From the NCBI RefSeq assembly GCF_009766065.1, contig NZ_LMUE01000002.1, forward strand, positions 62,001 through 126,000: 64,000 nucleotides of DNA. Direction: 5' to 3'. Both the position numbers and the translations under genes were made by a program. Below, in pieces: positions 25,788 through 39,916 of the stretch (position 1 is its first letter; every line of letters starts with the position of its first letter). Under the pieces are notes generated by a model. It worked only from the letters and a program-made list of their open reading frames with translations. It had not been told where the DNA came from and did not search any database. This DNA is from Dyella sp. S184 (lineage in GTDB: Bacteria > Pseudomonadota > Gammaproteobacteria > Xanthomonadales > Rhodanobacteraceae).

Positions 25788-26193
25788 AGCACATCTCCCA
25801 ATAGCGCCTGCGCGGTCACCTCCGGTCCCGCGTCCGGCCCCTGGATCACCAAAGGCTGGGTGTTGTGCCGGGTAGTGGTAAGCGCGCAGTGGTTGTCGGT
25901 GCCATACGGGCGCGCGCAGCGCCTTGGGCACCAGACCCTGCACATCCACCTCGTCGGTGCCGAGGGAAAATGCCGCGTTGCGGGCGATGATCAGCAGTTT
26001 GCGCGCCACGTCCTCGACGGAAAGATCGGAGCGTGGATCAGGCTCGGTGTCGCCCAGTTGACGCGCTTCGCGCAGCAAGACAGAGAATGGCTGGTTGCCG
26101 TCATACTGGTTGAACACCCACGACAACGAGCCGGAGAACACGCCTTCCAGCGTGAGCAAGCTGTCACCACAGGTACGCAAACGGCGCACTGCC
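25788..26193 (-). pseudogene. Decayed 3' fragment of a homoserine dehydrogenase gene (second copy)
   Basis: The DNA aligns by eye with the 3' half of the intact hom gene (31655-32236), same strand. The segment 25960-26193 is nearly identical to 31970-32236, including a 42-base identical run at 25976-26017; the 25788-25900 part is more diverged. About 170 bp present in hom (around 31780-31955) are missing near 25908, which also breaks the frame, and the NAD-binding half is absent. A readable stretch encodes TCGDSLLTLEGVFSGSLSW. This is not functional. It marks the left border of the lanthipeptide island and forms a direct repeat with hom. Confidence 0.88.
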
Positions 26194-26231: not shown

Positions 26232-26261
26232 AAACGAAAGCCCCGCCGAGTCGGGGCTTTC
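26232..26261 (-). terminator. Terminator of the lanthipeptide operon
   Basis: On the minus strand GAAAGCCCCGACTCGGCGGGGCTTTC: AAAGCCCCG pairs with CGGGGCTTT over a six-base loop. The stem overlaps the lanT stop codon and is followed by CGTTTATC, a weak U tract. The complementary arms also end in T on the plus strand. Confidence 0.8.
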
Positions 26262-28173
26262 AACCAATCATATCCGCGCCACCACCATCGGCCTCACCAT
26301 ACAGCCGCGTCTGCAATCGATACAGCTCGGCATAGCGCCCATTTGCCTGTAGCAATTCGTCGTGACTACCCTGCTCGATCAGCACACCACGCTCCAAGAA
26401 GAAGATCCGGTGTGCCTTGCGGATGCTCGCCAGCCGATGGGTGATCAGGATCACCGTACGCTGCTGCGCCAGCTTGCGCAGGGACTCGTACACCGCCTGT
26501 TCGGCCTTGGCATCCAGCGACGACGTAGGCTCGTCCCAGATCACCAGCGGCGCATCGCGATACAGCCCGCGCGCGACTGCCAACCGCTGCCATTGGCCGC
26601 CGGATAGATCCTGACCGCCGAGAAAATGACGCGACAGCAAGGTATCCCAGCGCCGCGGCAGCCTGTCGATAACCTCGCTCGCGCCGGCGTCGCGTGCCGC
26701 GCGCCGCAGATCGTGCTCGCCCGGATCGGGCCGGTCATGCCGTCCGAGACGCACGTTGTCACGCGCATTGCGCGGCCAGCGTACGGGCTCCTGCAGCACC
26801 ATGGCGACGCGATCGGCCAACGACTCGGGCGCCATTGCACGCAGATCAACACCGCTCCAGCTGATCCGCCCCGCGCTTGGCCGATACAGGCCGGCGATCA
26901 ACTTCGCCAGGGTGGTCTTGCCGGAACCGTTCTCGCCGACTAGGGCAATCGTCTCGCCCGCCTGGATGGTCAGCGAGATCTCCTGCAGCGCCAGGCCCTG
27001 TGCACCGGGATAGCCAAAGCTGACCTGCTCCAATTCGATCTGGCCCGGTGCCTGCGGTGCCTCGACACCAGCTGCCGGACCACGCTGGAGTTCCAACTGC
27101 TCGATAAATTCCCGGTAGTCGCTGATATACAGCGCCTTCTCGAACAGTTCGCGCGCCACCAGCATCAACCTGGCAAGCGCCGCGCTGGCACTGCGAATCG
27201 CGATCACCGCCGTGCCGGCAGCGGCCAGATCCAGCCAGCGCTCATCGAGCATCACGCCGAGTGCCACAAAGGTACCGATCAGCCCCAACCCGGACAGCAG
27301 CCGGCCCAACGTGGTCGATCGGGTCTCGGCCATACCTTGGCGCACCAGATGCCGCTCAAGTTCGGTCGCGCTGCGGCGGTATTCCGCCAGCACATAGTCC
27401 TGTGCCTGGTTGGCGCGGATCTCCGGCGCCGCTTCGCGCTCGGTGGCCAACTCAGCCATCATCTGGGTTTGCCGGGTCAGCGCGATCGTGGTCGGCATCG
27501 CAGCGTATTGCAGGCCGGCGGCCTTCAGCGCGGCCCAACCATCCGGCAGCAGCGCAAGCAACAACACTGGCAGCAACAGCGGATGCAGCAGAAACACTGC
27601 GAGCGAGGCACCGGCCACCGCGAGCAGCGCGCTGAGCACCTCGACCAAACAAGCGGTAGCGCTTTCCATATGCATCACACCGCGATCCTTCGCGCGATGC
27701 AGCCGATCGTAGAACGCCGGATCGTCGAACGATTCCAGCGGCACTTGCAGGCTGACTTCGAACAGTTGCTCCTCGGCCACGCGATGCACTCGCGGCGCCA
27801 GTCGCACCCTGGCGATGGACGTCAAGGCGTCCATCGCGATACGCAGCAGATACACGGCGCACAACAGCAGCAGCAGCGGCAAGGCGGCTCGCAGTTGCGC
27901 TGGATTGCCGGGCCCGTTGAAGACGCGCGCCAGCACTTTGGCCGTCAGCAACAGACCCAAGGTAGTAGCCGCGCCGGCGAGCAATTGCGCCACTACCACC
28001 AGCACCGCAAGTCTCGGCGAAGCGCGCCGCAGAATACCCACCACCGGTCGTGCCGCCATGCCCAGGCGACGCAATAGCGCGCGCAGCCCTACGGCTTGCT
28101 GCGCTTGATCGTCCAGACGCCAGTACGGGGTGTGCAGCTCTGCCTGATCGACCTGGTCTGCCTGCGTGTTCAG
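26260..28173 (-). CDS. lanT: Lanthipeptide ABC exporter (fused permease-ATPase, no C39 peptidase); CTG start
   Basis: Half-transporter with permease and ATPase in one chain, predicted to export the lanthipeptide. From the CTG start it is 637 residues: about 50 N-terminal residues, membrane helices between 55 and 330, then an ABC domain with Walker A GENGSGKTT (about 413-421), signature LSGGQWQRLAVARG, Walker B PLVIWDEPTSSLD and switch His in LITHRLASI. CTG 28173 overlaps the lanM stop (CTGA) and has GGAGG 9 bases upstream; the first conventional codon, TTG at 28074, lacks such a site and would drop 33 in-frame residues (WRLDDQAQQAVGLRALLRR region). Class II LanT proteins usually begin with a Cys peptidase; none is present here. 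Confidence 0.88.
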   Translation of the reverse strand: MNTQADQVDQAELHTPYWRLDDQAQQAVGLRALLRRLGMAARPVVGILRRASPRLAVLVVVAQLLAGAATTLGLLLTAKVLARVFNGPGNPAQLRAALPLLLLLCAVYLLRIAMDALTSIARVRLAPRVHRVAEEQLFEVSLQVPLESFDDPAFYDRLHRAKDRGVMHMESATACLVEVLSALLAVAGASLAVFLLHPLLLPVLLLALLPDGWAALKAAGLQYAAMPTTIALTRQTQMMAELATEREAAPEIRANQAQDYVLAEYRRSATELERHLVRQGMAETRSTTLGRLLSGLGLIGTFVALGVMLDERWLDLAAAGTAVIAIRSASAALARLMLVARELFEKALYISDYREFIEQLELQRGPAAGVEAPQAPGQIELEQVSFGYPGAQGLALQEISLTIQAGETIALVGENGSGKTTLAKLIAGLYRPSAGRISWSGVDLRAMAPESLADRVAMVLQEPVRWPRNARDNVRLGRHDRPDPGEHDLRRAARDAGASEVIDRLPRRWDTLLSRHFLGGQDLSGGQWQRLAVARGLYRDAPLVIWDEPTSSLDAKAEQAVYESLRKLAQQRTVILITHRLASIRKAHRIFFLERGVLIEQGSHDELLQANGRYAELYRLQTRLYGEADGGGADMIG

Positions 28174-31055
28174 AACCGATCGCCTCCGAGAGTGAGGATC
28201 GAGGGCAGGGCGCTGTCCGGATGCGCTTTCAATAGCTGATAGGCGATACCACCCTGACCCGACATCAGTCCTGGCGAAAAGATCTCGCGGGTCATGCCGC
28301 AGATCGGGCCGTGTTGCTCCAGGCTGGTCAGCACGTATTCCAGCAGCCCGTCGCGCGACAGCTCCGGCGGTCCCTCACCGGCAACGATTGCATGATCCAG
28401 CAACTCCCACGCACTGAGATCACCGTGGCAGACACAGTGGTTCCAACCCAGCCCCAACCGCCAGGTCGCCGCGGCAGCACGCCGCAGCAGCAGCCGCGTC
28501 GACGGCTGCCGCAGCTGTGGATCGAGATCGAGCCGGGCCAAACCGATCCCGACCGAGCCATGGCACCACGCGGCGGCGGTTTTGATGCCACCCAGCAGGC
28601 GCTTGTCTAGCCAGTTTTGTTCTTCGTCATCGAACAGGGCGTCCTCGAAAGCGAACGCCGCCTGCGCCGTTTGTAGATATCGCGCCTCGCCGCTGGCTTG
28701 GGCCAGCCTGCTCAAGGCCCAACCGATTCCGCTGACACCGTGCGCAAAACCGCCGATACCGTCCGGCCATTGCTCATACACCCAGAACGCCTGCCCATCG
28801 CGTTGGCTGGCCTGCGCACACAACTGGTCACCGAGAGCACAGGCCATATCCAGATAGCGCGTATCACCAGTGCGCTTGGCCAGCATCAGCAAGGGCGGGA
28901 TCGCGCCTGGTGCACCGGAAAGCACATCTTGCACATCGCAGGCGGCGGCCGCCTCGGCGATATCGTCGGCCATCGCGCAGGCGCGGGCCACGCTGTCATC
29001 GCCTGCCATGCCCCAATCGGCCAAAATCAGCCGTGTCCAGATCAGCGAACCCAAGCCGAAATAGCCGCCAGGCGACAAGGGGCGCACCTCGATACTACTG
29101 TTGCGCTGGTTCTGGCGTTTCGCCTCGGCCAAATCGAGCGTGCGCAAGGTTGCGGCGAATAAGGCCTCGATGCCCTCGACCGGATCGGCACGGCCAGCTT
29201 GAGCTTCACGCAGATAGGCCGCGGTCAGCAGCGCGACCCCGGCAGTGCCGCCGTACAGGTCCAAGCCCACCGGCTGCACCGACCAGTCCGTGTCCGGATC
29301 GAATACAGGGGCGATCCAGGCGACGCTGCCATCGTCGCCGCGGATCGCGCTGGACAGCAGCTCGCGCATGATTTGCGCCGCCAGCAATCGGCGGCGCGCA
29401 TCGTGTTCGCCGGTATGCGCTCGTGCCGGCCACATCGATGTCTCATCCGGCAACCAGCCTTGATTGATATAGGCACTGATCAAAGCACCCTGGATCACCT
29501 TGCGTTCCAGTTGCAGATCGGCGGCACGCCAATGCCGCAGCGCCGCCTCGATCAGGTCGCCCTGTGCGCGCCAGCGTGTGCCGCGCGGACCTTCCAACTG
29601 CCCTTCGCCGGCCATCGCGGTAAAGAACGGAATATCGCCGACCAGCAGATCGTCGATCTCGGCCTCGATCACCACGGACTCGCCTGGTGCTGCCGCCACG
29701 TTGGCGGCCATCTTGCTTAATAGTTCACGCGCCCGCTTTCGTGCCGGTGGCTCGTTATGCAGTGACACCGGATGCCACAACATGCGACCCAGTTCGGCAT
29801 ACACCTCGGTGGCGCGGGGCACTACCCGGATACGGCAGTCGGCAAACGCGGCCAACCGTATGCGCAGCGTGCCGGCGGCGTCAAGTGTGTGCAGGTGTGC
29901 GGTCATCTGATCGAATGCATCCAGCACCTCGGGCCAGTACTGCGCTAGCGCCGGCTGCGGACTGGGATGATTCTGCGAGATCGGCGCCGACACCAGGCTG
30001 GTACCGATATGCGCCTGATCGGTGCCGGGCTCGAGGATATCCGGCAGCGGCAGCAGCGGCTGCTCTCCCGGCAGCATACCGACCGCCGAAGCATCGACGC
30101 CACGCCAGCCCAGTCCCACACCGCGGCCCGGCAGCATGCCGATGCTCAGCACCGTGCCAGCGACCAGTTCCGATGCGCGGTCCAATGCCTGCCCGAAGCC
30201 GGAGGGCGATGGCGCAACCTTTGGCGTAAACAGCGTCTCGCAATCGATCACCACGGGACTGTCGCCATGGGCGATCACGTTCTCCGCGTGCAGATCGGTC
30301 CCGCCGAGCAGGCGCATCACCGCCAGCCAGTGGCCGATGCCGCGATAGAAACCGCGCAGTTGCCCGGCATCCGCTGCGTAGCGATGGCCGATAAATTCGG
30401 TCCAGCCATAACCCTTGCGCGCCACCACCCGGGGTACGCGCATGCTTGATCGCTCAGTCTGCGCGTCGGCGAGCTCGTCGACAAAATCGGCCAGCACGAT
30501 ATCCACCGCCACCGAACGCGGTTTGTAGACCAGGCGCCCGCCGGTGCAGCGCAGCAGTGCTACGGTTTGTCCGCCGCGATGACTGTCGCCAGCACTGAAA
30601 CTCATTTCCAACAAGTCGCCCAGCGGCTCGGCGCACAGCGACGCCAGGCTGGCGCGATCAACCGCCCAGCGTTGCGCGAAATTCAACGATGCTGCGCAGC
30701 GATGCTGCACGATATACGTGACCCGCGCCAACAAACCGGGATAGCGCTCGGCCCGGCTATCCCAGAAGCTGCGCTGCGACGAAAGGTCGAGAAACTGCTG
30801 CCAACGCTGAGCACTATCGTCGCCATGCAGTTGGCCGGTGACCCGCGCCGCATTCAGCTCCAGCAGCAGCATGCGGCTAAGCTTGCTGTGCAGCACGGCG
30901 TAGAGGGATTGCCGCGTCGCGGCCAGGATCGCTTCGCGTTCGCGCTCAACAAGGCCGGTAATCAACGCAAACTGGGTTGCCAGCTCGTCCAACGCGGACG
31001 AGAACAGGCAACCCAGCGATGCATCAAAATTACCGGCGTCCGTGGTGGACGCCAT
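28170..31055 (-). CDS. lanM: Class II lanthipeptide synthetase LanM
   Basis: Bifunctional enzyme that phosphorylates and eliminates Ser/Thr in a precursor peptide, then adds Cys thiols to make (methyl)lanthionine rings. The 961-residue protein has the dehydratase domain (about 60-560) with kinase-like residues Lys178 (LVYKPRS), His256/Asn259 (GGTDLHAEN) and Asp271 (VVIDCETLF), and the LanC-type cyclase domain (about 600-961) with zinc ligands Cys831 (WCHGSVGIG), Cys876 and His877 (NHCVCHGDLS). ATG 31055 lies 5 bases after the lanA stop with no clear Shine-Dalgarno, so coupled translation is likely. Longer starts would run antisense-frame through lanA and were rejected. Confidence 0.95.
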   Translation of the reverse strand: MASTTDAGNFDASLGCLFSSALDELATQFALITGLVEREREAILAATRQSLYAVLHSKLSRMLLLELNAARVTGQLHGDDSAQRWQQFLDLSSQRSFWDSRAERYPGLLARVTYIVQHRCAASLNFAQRWAVDRASLASLCAEPLGDLLEMSFSAGDSHRGGQTVALLRCTGGRLVYKPRSVAVDIVLADFVDELADAQTERSSMRVPRVVARKGYGWTEFIGHRYAADAGQLRGFYRGIGHWLAVMRLLGGTDLHAENVIAHGDSPVVIDCETLFTPKVAPSPSGFGQALDRASELVAGTVLSIGMLPGRGVGLGWRGVDASAVGMLPGEQPLLPLPDILEPGTDQAHIGTSLVSAPISQNHPSPQPALAQYWPEVLDAFDQMTAHLHTLDAAGTLRIRLAAFADCRIRVVPRATEVYAELGRMLWHPVSLHNEPPARKRARELLSKMAANVAAAPGESVVIEAEIDDLLVGDIPFFTAMAGEGQLEGPRGTRWRAQGDLIEAALRHWRAADLQLERKVIQGALISAYINQGWLPDETSMWPARAHTGEHDARRRLLAAQIMRELLSSAIRGDDGSVAWIAPVFDPDTDWSVQPVGLDLYGGTAGVALLTAAYLREAQAGRADPVEGIEALFAATLRTLDLAEAKRQNQRNSSIEVRPLSPGGYFGLGSLIWTRLILADWGMAGDDSVARACAMADDIAEAAAACDVQDVLSGAPGAIPPLLMLAKRTGDTRYLDMACALGDQLCAQASQRDGQAFWVYEQWPDGIGGFAHGVSGIGWALSRLAQASGEARYLQTAQAAFAFEDALFDDEEQNWLDKRLLGGIKTAAAWCHGSVGIGLARLDLDPQLRQPSTRLLLRRAAAATWRLGLGWNHCVCHGDLSAWELLDHAIVAGEGPPELSRDGLLEYVLTSLEQHGPICGMTREIFSPGLMSGQGGIAYQLLKAHPDSALPSILTLGGDRF

Positions 31056-31060
31056 CGGGT

Positions 31061-31246
31061 TTAGCAGCACTGACGCGTTTGTGACCCCGTACAAGCCGTG
31101 CCGCATCCACCGAGCGTGGTTGGCCTGATCGATTCGCTGACGATGTCGGCCTCGGCGAATTGGCTGCTGCTGAACAGCGGACCGGCTGGATTGTCCAGTC
31201 CAGCATCGTTGAGCCAACCAGAGACCATATCGTTTGCATTGCTCAT
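31061..31246 (-). CDS. lanA: Lanthipeptide precursor peptide
   Basis: A 61-residue peptide directly upstream of lanM. The leader (1-47) begins MSNANDMVSGWLNDAG, is acidic (QFAEADIVSES) and ends TTLGG, a double-glycine cleavage site. The predicted core is CGTACTGSQTRQCC: Cys 1, 5, 13, 14 and Thr 3, 6, 10 plus Ser 8, so dehydratable residues and Cys match 4:4. AGAGGT lies 8 bases before the ATG. This is what a class II precursor should look like; the exact ring pattern cannot be deduced. No second precursor was found nearby. Confidence 0.93.
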   Translation of the reverse strand: MSNANDMVSGWLNDAGLDNPAGPLFSSSQFAEADIVSESIRPTTLGGCGTACTGSQTRQCC

Positions 31247-31641
31247 AACATCTACCTCTTAGATGGTTGAGGAAAATCGTGCCGGAAAGATGTGCAAAGG
31301 CAAACGGCGATTTATGAGCTTTGCTTTATGTCGAACCGCCTCCACCCCGTAAACTCCGCCGACAAACTGGGAGATCACTCTCCCGCGGCGATGGTAGTCA
31401 CGCTTAAAAGAACCGGTCTACCTGGGCGAATTACCAGTTGACTATTCCAGCGGAATAGCCACATTACGGCGCAAAGCAGTGCAGCATTTCATGGCGGTCG
31501 TGTAGATTTTCGTGCCGGATACATATGGATGATATTGCAGCATTGGTGCGATCCAGACAGTCGCAACATGCTTTGTTGTGAGGCATGTTGCGACTGCCGC
31601 ACGACGGAAATTTAGCGCTTCTGGATAAACTTTCGTCACCG
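31247..31641. other. Gene-free, lower-GC region upstream of lanA
   Basis: 395 bp between lanA and the end of hom with no convincing gene. It is visibly richer in A/T than its surroundings. It holds a perfect small hairpin at 31369-31384 (GGGAGA-TCAC-TCTCCC) and a weak promoter candidate for lanA (separate entry). A 65-codon minus-strand frame (31442-31639) has no ribosome site, leader motif or family resemblance and was not called. The region is the right part of the island boundary. Confidence 0.6.
31325..31353 (-). promoter_or_regulatory. Candidate promoter of the lan operon
   Basis: Minus strand TTTACG, 17 bases, CATAAA: 4 of 6 matches to each sigma-70 element with ideal spacing, 79 bp before the lanA ATG. 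Weak; offered only because no better candidate exists in the region. Confidence 0.3.
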
Positions 31642-32751
31642 CTACAAAAGGGCTAACACGTCACCAAGCAAAGCCTGTGCGGTCACTTCCGGCCCCGCGC
31701 CTGGCCCCTGAATCACCAGCGGTTGGGTGTTGTAACGGGTAGTGGTGAGGGCGAACTGGTTGTCCGTGCCGTAGAGGCGTGCGGCAGGATGGGTAACGGG
31801 GACTTCGGCGATGCCGACGCGCGCCTTGCCACGCTGGTTGAGACGGGCGAGGAAGCGCAGCACGTTGCCGCGTGATTTGGCTTCGGCGTGACGCGCGGCA
31901 AGCGGTTCGTCCAGTTCCGTCAGCCGAGCCAGAAACTGCTCGGCAGTGATCGCACGCAGCGGTTCGGGCACCAGGCTTTCCACCTGTACCTCATCGACGC
32001 CCAGGGCGAAGCCCGCGTTGCGGGCGATGATCAGCAGTTTGCGCGCCACGTCCTCGCCGGAAAGATCCGAGCGTGGATCGGGCTCGGTGTAGCCCAGTCG
32101 ACGCGCCTCGCGCAGCAAGACAGAGAATGGCTGGCTGCCGTCGTACTGGTTGAACAGCCACGACAGCGAACCGGAGAACACGCCTTCCAGCGTGAGCAGG
32201 CTGTCACCACAGCTACGCAAACGGCGCAGCGTGGACAGCACCGGCAGGCCTGCTCCAACAGTGGCCGAATCGCCGTAGCGACCGCCGTTCGCGACCGCCG
32301 CCTGCAGCGCACGCCAGCCGGGCAGTTCGCCGCCCGCCAGCGCCTTGTTCGCGGTGACCACGTGATAACCACGTGCCAGCCACTCGGCGTGGCGCGACGC
32401 CAGGGACACGCTGGCAGTGGCGTCGACGATCACCTTCACCGCCGCACTGCTGGCATCCAGCACCTCAAGCAGGATGGCATCGCTGCGCGCATCGCCCTGG
32501 CTGTTCAACTGCTCGCGCAGGCTGCGATTGGCCAAATGGATCGGATCGGTCTGCTGGCGGCGTGAGTTGGCCGCACCGACCAGCCGCACGCTGGCGGCAG
32601 CCGGCGTGTTGAGCAGCTTCAACAACGCGCCACCGACCACGCCTGTACCTAGCAGCACGATGGCAATCGTGGGCGCGGTTCCAACTGCGAGGGTGGCGCG
32701 CGGCAGCTTGCGGTCAACCGCAGCAGCCGCTTCTTCCAGCACCGCGCTCAT
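31642..32751 (-). CDS. hom: Homoserine dehydrogenase (monofunctional)
   Basis: Reduces L-aspartate semialdehyde to homoserine with NAD(P)H, supplying the threonine and methionine branches. The 369-residue protein resembles the C-terminal half of ThrA/MetL: Rossmann motif IAIVLLGTGVVGGALL (about 28-43), VTANKALAGG with the conserved Asn-Lys, EGVFSGSLSWLFNQYDG, and DLSGEDVARKLLIIAR with the catalytic Asp/Lys region. There is no aspartokinase or ACT domain. ATG overlaps the metB stop by 4 bp. The 3' half is duplicated in decayed form beyond the lan genes at 25788-26193. Confidence 0.95.
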   Translation of the reverse strand: MSAVLEEAAAAVDRKLPRATLAVGTAPTIAIVLLGTGVVGGALLKLLNTPAAASVRLVGAANSRRQQTDPIHLANRSLREQLNSQGDARSDAILLEVLDASSAAVKVIVDATASVSLASRHAEWLARGYHVVTANKALAGGELPGWRALQAAVANGGRYGDSATVGAGLPVLSTLRRLRSCGDSLLTLEGVFSGSLSWLFNQYDGSQPFSVLLREARRLGYTEPDPRSDLSGEDVARKLLIIARNAGFALGVDEVQVESLVPEPLRAITAEQFLARLTELDEPLAARHAEAKSRGNVLRFLARLNQRGKARVGIAEVPVTHPAARLYGTDNQFALTTTRYNTQPLVIQGPGAGPEVTAQALLGDVLALL

Positions 32752-38673: not shown

Positions 38674-38910
38674 GCCACCCATTCCACGTGCCCGTGGAAA
38701 GATCCGAGGCACGCGTGACTGTCGCCCACATGTGAATGCCGCACTCCCACGAAATTCACATGCAAAGAGCCTGCGGCTTGCGATGCTGTATCCGCAGTAG
38801 CCATGCCTTCGGTACGGTTTCACCTCCGTCAGGTGCGTGCGCTGACATTTGCCACTGTCCTTGACCTGTGGCTCCGCCACAAGCTTGGCATTCATAAAGG
38901 ACACCTCATC

Positions 38911-39249
38911 ATGAAAACGAAACTTGTCTTGGCTATGTGCGCAGCTCTGCTGGCTTCAAGTGCAGCGATGGCAGCGCAGGATGATCAAAGCAGCGACGGC
39001 ACTGTTCAGACCACGAAAACCACTACTACGACCATGCAGCACGTCAGCGGCGCCCACACCACCTGGTACAAGGAAGGTGGCGTGATACCTACCGAGTATC
39101 GCGGCAACACCTATGTCGTTCAGCACTGGCAGACCGAGCATTTGAACGAACCCACGGAAGGATCCCACTGGGTGCGTGGTGACAATGGTGACTACCTGCT
39201 GGTCGACGAAAACACCGGCGCGATTACCAGCATCATCCATCAGCATTGA
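38911..39249 (+). CDS. RcnB-like periplasmic protein, copy 1
   Basis: A 112-residue exported protein: signal peptide MKTKLVLAMCAALLASSAAMA, then a Thr-rich stretch (VQTTKTTTTTMQH) and an RcnB-type domain (PF11776-like) with WYKEGGVIPTEYRGNTYVVQ, GSHWVRGDNGDYLLVDENTG. RcnB was first described as a nickel/cobalt homeostasis protein in E. coli; many relatives have unknown roles. AAGGA lies 10 bases before ATG. It is a tandem duplicate of the gene at 39578 and has its own terminator. Confidence 0.85.
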   Translation: MKTKLVLAMCAALLASSAAMAAQDDQSSDGTVQTTKTTTTTMQHVSGAHTTWYKEGGVIPTEYRGNTYVVQHWQTEHLNEPTEGSHWVRGDNGDYLLVDENTGAITSIIHQH

Positions 39250-39319: not shown

Positions 39320-39577
39320 GTTTCTGCCGATCCGATCAAGTGGCATGCCGTTCCCGGAAACTGAAGGGCAGACAACAATCTGAACGCACCATCGCAGACA
39401 GGTGACCTACGTTCAAACGTGAACGGCGCACTGGCGCGAAATTCACATATTGAGGGCTTGCAGCTTGCAAAGCTGCCTGTGCATTAGGCATGCCCGGTGC
39501 GATTTAACTCTTAGCTAGTGCACGCTGAGATTTGCTGCCTTTCTTGTTGTGACTCGCCATTTACGAAGGAATACATC

Positions 39578-39916
39578 ATGAAAACGAAACTTGTTTTGGC
39601 TATGTGCGCTGCCCTGCTGCTGTCCAATGTGGCGTTGGCGCAAACCGACGATCAAAGTGGTGGGACGGTTGAAACCACCAAGACGGTCACTACCACCGTG
39701 CAGCATATCGGTGGCAACAACGAGACCTGGTACAAACAGGGTGGCGTAATACCTACCGAGTATCGCGACAATCGGTATGTCGTTCAGCACTGGCAGACCG
39801 AGCACTTGAACGAACCCGCTGAAGGTTCCCATTGGGTGCGTGGCGACAACGGTGACTTCCTGCTGGTCGACGAAAACACCGGTGCCATCGTAAGCATCGT
39901 CCACCAGCAACACTGA
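39578..39916 (+). CDS. RcnB-like periplasmic protein, copy 2
   Basis: A 112-residue paralogue of the gene 667 bp upstream, differing mainly just after the signal peptide (MKTKLVLAMCAALLLSNVALA) and in the Thr-rich linker (VETTKTVTTTVQHIGGNNET). The RcnB domain is almost the same: WYKQGGVIPTEYRDNRYVVQ, GSHWVRGDNGDFLLVDENTG. Its upstream DNA also resembles that of copy 1 (GAAATTCACAT and surrounding words), so the duplicated unit includes the promoter region. Divergence suggests an old duplication. Confidence 0.85.
   Translation: MKTKLVLAMCAALLLSNVALAQTDDQSGGTVETTKTVTTTVQHIGGNNETWYKQGGVIPTEYRDNRYVVQHWQTEHLNEPAEGSHWVRGDNGDFLLVDENTGAIVSIVHQQH

Follow-up and report, generated by a model that had tools for sequence, protein, structure and literature searches.

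The window analysed here, a stretch of 64,000 nucleotides from Dyella sp. S184, contains a short frame for a Cys-rich peptide next to a lanthipeptide synthetase gene, which raises the question of what this gene pair makes and where, in the precursor, the leader ends and the product begins. The earlier note on this DNA had proposed a class II lanthipeptide with a 14-residue core that starts directly after a double-Gly, in a bacterial background where such peptides would be unusual. To address these proposals, we compared the locus with its relatives. The pertinent features, all on the minus strand, are as follows.

25806..26188, minus strand: decayed 3' copy of hom; its two blocks match hom at 88% and 82% identity (nucleotide comparison)
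26260..28173, minus strand: gene for an ABC exporter; ATPase domain present, C39 match absent (ORF list, profile matches, locus comparison)
28170..31055, minus strand: lanM, class II lanthipeptide synthetase, 961 aa (ORF, TIGR03897, PF13575, PF05147, LicM2 alignment)
31061..31246, minus strand: lanA, DUF6229 lanthipeptide precursor, 61 residues, stop codon at 31061-31063 (translation, PF19740, codon comparison)
31064..31105, minus strand: minimum core, the C-terminal 14 codons, CGTACTGSQTRQCC (precursor survey, codon comparison, actinobacterial ends)
31106..31120, minus strand: TTLGG codons directly before the minimum core; the second Thr is Thr44, present in 8 of 8 orthologues, and the first Gly is present in 4 of 8
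31642..32751, minus strand: intact hom (homoserine dehydrogenase) beside the cassette, its 3' part mosaic (alignment)

Gene content of the locus

The translation of lanA (window 31061-31246, minus strand), MSNANDMVSGWLNDAGLDNPAGPLFSSSQFAEADIVSESIRPTTLGG-CGTACTGSQTRQCC, matches the Pfam profile PF19740 over positions 1-62 of 62 with 65.9 bits against a cut-off of 25; the peptide is thus a member of the DUF6229 family along its whole length, and it has no match among the NCBIfam models. The possibility that lanA is a chance ORF was rejected on the strength of the PF19740 match and the codon pattern described below. The lanM gene starts 5 bp past the lanA stop and has no inner stop codon. Its product scores 585.5 bits against TIGR03897 (cut-off 304) and matches PF13575 and PF05147. 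An alignment to LicM2 (6st5) spans residues 47-956, and both proteins have the D-x-H-x-x-N, D-x-E, WCHG and CHG motifs, which we take to be catalytic or zinc residues. Both hallmarks of class II are present, namely, a LanM with DUF4135 dehydratase and LanC cyclase domains, and an adjoining precursor with a Cys- and Ser/Thr-rich C-terminus. The PF19740, TIGR03897 and PF13575/PF05147 matches support the original assignment to class II, the translation and the uninterrupted lanM bear out the description of a 61-codon peptide 5 bp before a complete LanM, and the range then given, 28170-31246, is exactly lanA plus lanM. There is one match to the window LanM in this genome, and the lanA peptide almost certainly is the substrate of that enzyme.

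The ORF list starts the ABC gene at a TTG (28074). From the sequence context, the start probably is the CTG at 28173 (28171-28173), which overlaps the lanM stop (CTGA); GGAGG lies nine bases before this codon, and the start at the matching place is CTG in locus L082, GTG in L060 and L069, and ATG in L138. The ABC gene is directly 3' of lanM in 4 of the 8 orthologous loci (the window counted) and in genome G427; in the other four, the 14-15 kb of locus compared contain no match to the window ABC protein. Alignment of the 110 bases 5' of lanA across loci shows a purine-rich stretch resembling a ribosome-binding site and, further upstream, a partly common stretch in the window, L053 and L082. Between hom and lanA there is also a perfect 14-base inverted repeat with an 11-base spacer (window 31558-31596).

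A search for other genes common to loci with precursors of core types A, B and C (clusters present in at least 3 of 27 loci, the best 30 judged by eye) yielded, beyond lanM and the ABC gene, mostly synteny of close relatives or shadow frames. The exception is a response-regulator-like frame and a 386-residue frame near the lan loci L040/L044 and L139/L144, in two families; these frames are possibly regulatory. In the close pair L060/L069, the ABC gene is adjoined by a frame that we presume to be M1-aminopeptidase-like from its GAMENAG motif; among the eight loci and the window, the sole blastp partner of this frame is the other member of the pair.

Relationship to rhodanocin and other known systems

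Rhodanocin, the LanII product of Dyella sp. 333MFSha, derives from a DUF6229 precursor; it has been made in E. coli and its rings have been solved (PMC9576775). The first characterised gammaproteobacterial lanthipeptides were reported in 2022, one of them a DUF6229 member; the authors proposed rhodanocins as a name and suggested two or more ring groups within DUF6229 (PMC9576775). In Lysobacter, DUF6229 proteins account for 21 of the 27 unique class II precursors, and the precursor network has six families (PMC11451712); these precursors share with the window peptide the Pfam family and the lanthipeptide cluster setting, a comparison made at the family level. Because rhodanocin has been characterised and the Lysobacter precursors reported, DUF6229 proteins are already known as class II lanthipeptide precursors, and the window cluster belongs among them.

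Within the family, the window peptide resembles rhodanocin in its DUF6229 membership, its class and its C-T-x-S motif. Rhodanocin, however, has three Cys in the spacing T.C..CT.S...T....C and no CC end, whereas the window peptide has four Cys. The rhodanocin spacing occurs exactly in 5 of the 72 DUF6229 precursors collected here, the window peptide not being one of them. The window LanM is 51-53% identical to the LanMs adjoining such precursors, and the four of these that are in our trees fall in its clade. Mersacidin-type class II lantibiotics also depend on a LanM and can have Cys as the first core residue. The window cluster differs from them in its DUF6229 leader, in lacking the TxTxEC motif, and in that no C39-type LanT was found.

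Distribution of the DUF6229 family

Of 233 genomes in the window's family, 42 have DUF6229, spread over 13 of its 26 genera, and none of 14 control genomes does; given this frequency, the earlier view that class II is unusual in this background is out of date. In the class and phylum samples, 2 of 369 and 3 of 398 genomes have DUF6229 over the cut-off, all in the order of the window itself; another genome of the class, G513, which lies outside the order, has a match below the cut-off, and this counts against our own reading. Within the window's genus, 3 of 45 genomes encode DUF6229, the other two with a different core type. The survey excludes a below-cut-off match on contig C157 of G084, as well as G268, G513 and a second place in G450, and the second precursor of L146 is not among the 72.

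A pattern proposed at the outset as damaging to the precursor assignment, lanM kept while the peptide frame is lost, is not what we found. All 65 opened loci with a DUF6229 precursor also hold a LanM, and of the 46 family genomes with LanM over the cut-off, 41 also have DUF6229 over the cut-off, the others being G081, G102, G160, G205 and G229. In the 42nd DUF6229 genome, G126, the LanM is split: lanM is in two overlapping frames (L071, 7033-9902), beside a precursor that departs from the core (CTYSLKAFCC). L071 perhaps is a decaying copy.

Conservation of the core

The motif CGTACTGSxTRxCC ends 8 of the 72 DUF6229 precursors (65 loci), from six genera and two families: the window, G089, G106, G117, G141, G142, G232 and G461, the last from the second family of the order. 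Since the motif itself picked this set, agreement at the 12 fixed positions is built in. Not built in is that the five rows of the window's branch in the LanM tree (support 96/93) all carry the core, and that in a plain search of 398 genomes with the whole precursor, the six best non-self matches all carry it as well (G232 is not among the matches listed).

In the core codons, silent changes outnumber replacements. Between the window and G461, all 14 core residues agree and 8 codons differ silently. Over the 28 pairs of the eight orthologues, which are not independent and come from the motif-picked set, the last 14 codons show 164 silent against 47 replacement differences, as opposed to 65 silent against 244 replacement differences in the preceding 14 codons. 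For the four orthologues defined by the LanM branch rather than by the motif (L053, L082, L060 and L069), the core has 2, 2, 1 and 2 replacements relative to the window; with equally many nucleotide differences placed at random, values as low came up in 27, 0, 0 and 0 of 2000 draws. For L072, L075 and L137, the corresponding numbers are 2, 2 and 0 of 2000, with the proviso that selection by the motif biases these three toward such an outcome. The exact string CGTACTGS does not occur in the text of the papers searched, which says little given that sequences in figures and supplements escape such searches.

The leader boundary

The evidence bears unevenly on the 14-residue core. A cut after Gly46-Gly47 would release a peptide of 14 residues and at most four rings, in which Cys1 (Cys48) could bond only toward the C-terminus; the window indeed has TTLGG before the Cys, the last 14 residues contain four Cys and four Ser/Thr, and 4 of the 8 orthologues retain GG (the window, L053 and the close pair L060/L069). 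However, the residue before the last Gly across the eight is G, G, G, G, D, N, H and C, so that a conserved GG before the core is seen in only half of them. At this place, the eight A2-type relatives have GR (5), GY, EQ and TQ, and three actinobacterial relatives described below have LT, IS and TV rather than GG. Extra Cys residues are located further upstream, two residues before Cys1 in G461 and four or five residues before it in 6 of the 8 A2-type precursors, and Thr44, four residues before Cys1, is invariant in all eight orthologues.

The protease side also speaks against a double-Gly cut. Pfam profiles detect no Peptidase_C39 domain in the ABC protein of the cluster, so that an exporter with a fused C39 domain was rejected, and no leader protease was found within the cluster. 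Two small frames elsewhere in the genome match C39 (L086 and L087, on contigs C3 and C19 of G000), which says little because C39 also matches in 8 of 14 control genomes. Both C39-like frames adjoin repeat-rich, possibly amyloid-like secreted proteins. LahT150 is a C39 protease. It did not cut rhodanocin despite a possible double-Gly (PMC9576775).

Because GG is present in half of the orthologues and none of the actinobacterial relatives, no C39 domain is evident, Thr44 is invariant and extra Cys lie upstream, the 14-residue core and the argument built on its first Cys are doubtful, and we regard a cut directly after Gly-Gly as the less probable outcome. The comparison of sequences instead favours, as likely though by no means secure, a product that would start upstream of Gly47 and be N-extended. 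The four Cys to four Ser/Thr ratio previously given for the core holds if cleavage follows GG directly and fails otherwise; that Cys1 has no preceding residue depends on the same unsupported boundary, and for Cys1, bonding to a Ser further toward the C-terminus remains plausible by analogy with Cys8-Ser14 of rhodanocin. There is a practical corollary. A published mining method begins the core at a GG or GA, or else close to S/T(x)2-7C (PMC7268733); because the double-Gly is not conserved here, such mining may mis-cut DUF6229 precursors.

Relatives in another phylum and the LanM tree

In a tblastn search of a plasmid collection, the LanM of the window has as top matches those of Nonomuraea gerenzanensis (48.5% identity) and two Embleya strains (42.5% and 41.2%); these 3 of 186 records were opened. 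The gene tables, which are incomplete by design, show no precursor entry before lanM at the three loci. The frame directly before each lanM is over the DUF6229 cut-off (64.0, 79.4 and 82.9 bits), and these frames end, in the same order, in CGTVCTDSRPRVCC, CGTACSGSRTRPCC and CGTACSGSRTRPCC. A further locus, L085 (DAHUXF010000063.1, 5-3014), labelled Acidobacteriaceae, encodes a DUF6229 precursor ending SICTGSDTVQCC and a LanM 60% identical to that of the window; the label may reflect a binning error, the choice being between transfer and mis-binning.

The LanM trees omit L066 (cut by a contig end) and L071 (two frames). In the careful, midpoint-rooted tree of 39 rows, which includes 11 of the 38 rows of core types D, E and F, the Embleya and then the Nonomuraea LanMs split off before the group of 25 rows made up of types A, B and C; the forks of 28, 26 and 25 rows have supports of 100/100, 100/99 and 100/100. 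The LanM branch tracks the core type, with 10 label changes where shuffled labels average 39.6, partly because near copies are included. The eight exact-core members are not a single LanM branch (2 changes in both trees; 0% of 200 bootstraps in the 39-row tree), a scatter that fits an ancestral core, and also convergence or transfer. Because actinobacterial LanMs with similar ends branch outside the window's LanM clade, the CGTxC end may be the older state and the rhodanocin spacing derived, a polarity that depends on our choice of types D and E as the outgroup and on as few as three actinobacterial records.

A bolder scenario, which we put forward as speculation with the odds against it, is that a product of the form CGTxC[TS]xSxxRxCC, whose boundary lies upstream of Cys1, has persisted with little change in both Actinomycetota and this proteobacterial order. 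It would then be ancestral within this LanM lineage, rhodanocins and the other ring types would be derived, and its four interlaced rings would make up a new lanthipeptide topology that acts on a conserved target. The present analysis adds the recurrence of a similar core across phyla and the evidence against a 14-mer released at the double-Gly.

Predicted rings

Rhodanocin undergoes four dehydrations and has three rings, Thr6-Cys11, Cys8-Ser14 and Thr12-Cys23, Thr18 being Dhb (PMC9576775). By analogy, a tentative plan for the window peptide, more probably wrong in some part than right, would connect Thr53 to Cys60 or Cys61, Cys48 to Ser55, Cys52 to Thr50 or Thr44, and Thr57 to the remaining C-terminal Cys. 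Loss of the Thr57 or Cys48 counterpart in some relatives does not narrow the choice to one pairing, and in L139/L144 the stretch that matches the core contains four Cys against only three Ser/Thr.

Origin of the cassette

The lanA-lanM-ABC genes lie between hom and the decayed 3' copy of hom (88% identity over 278 bases and 82% over 111). In G163, G164 and G154, of the same genus, the metB, hom, CDGSH and permease genes are side by side, and nothing in the stretch compared matches the lan genes. Mosaic structure is evident in the intact hom: as far as alignment column 800 its closest sequence is that of G163/G164 (84-96 per block of about 100 columns), over columns 800-1100 that of G174 (94-95 against 70-80 for G163), and over the last 85 columns it shows no preference (G174 64, G163 67, G161 69). 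The decayed copy is nearest to the window's own hom over columns 600-800 (93 and 94 against 90 and 90), and from column 800 is nearer to G163 than to G174 (59 against 49 of 70). Because a decayed hom copy and a mosaic hom flank the cassette, its arrangement fits import by homologous recombination within hom from a G174-like donor; no lan genes are shown at the hom of G174. In G141 and G142 (L072 and L075), of another genus, lanA-lanM also lies directly 3' of hom, and their LanMs are not the nearest to that of the window; hom was not found in the stretches compared of the other five orthologues.

The N-terminal part of the leader (window 31208-31234), NDMVSGWLN, resembles type E precursors, such as NDEIVSGWLS of G174, and most of the window precursor's own group have QWRNEAG there. 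A hybrid leader is possible; a nucleotide search for a long stretch common to the window leader region and G172/G174 found none.

Predicted function

With high confidence, we assign the three genes lanA, lanM and ABC to one class II lanthipeptide operon in the DUF6229 (rhodanocin) family, which would work through modification, export and cleavage. Its gene content, family, conservation and linkage are direct observations. The chemistry, export, cleavage and activity outlined next are predictions. LanM would recognise the DUF6229 leader, dehydrate Thr50, Thr53, Ser55 and Thr57, perhaps along with Thr43/Thr44, and close Cys48, Cys52, Cys60 and Cys61 onto the dehydrated residues; the ABC protein would export the product; and a protease encoded elsewhere would take off the leader, more likely upstream of Gly-Gly than after it.

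That the intact genes form a silent cluster appears improbable. The patchy presence in the genus (3 of 45 genomes, the other two with a different core type) and the recombination of the cassette into the hom locus would suit disuse, as would the promoter and terminator scan, which found nothing (0 sigma-70-like promoters in 31200-31700, with 0.4 expected by chance, so that this is weak evidence), but lanA, lanM and the ABC gene are all open and the core has few replacements. We lean moderately toward an antibacterial product, expected to be narrow in its action. A LanM-modified peptide with another role, such as a signal, would fit the lack of an evident separate immunity gene among the listed frames of the operon and the weak activity of a rhodanocin fragment, probably non-native, which was selective in inhibiting K. 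pneumoniae at 126 uM (PMC9576775). We nevertheless consider such a role unlikely, given that nothing speaks positively for a signal and that the patchy distribution and turnover of the loci fit a bacteriocin. Since the ring-forming end is shared by several genera and has a near match in another phylum, this product is worth making first.

Elsewhere in the window, 38803-39249 and 39518-39916 (plus strand) encode a tandem pair of small paralogues that have a secretion-like start (MKTKLVLAMCAALL...).
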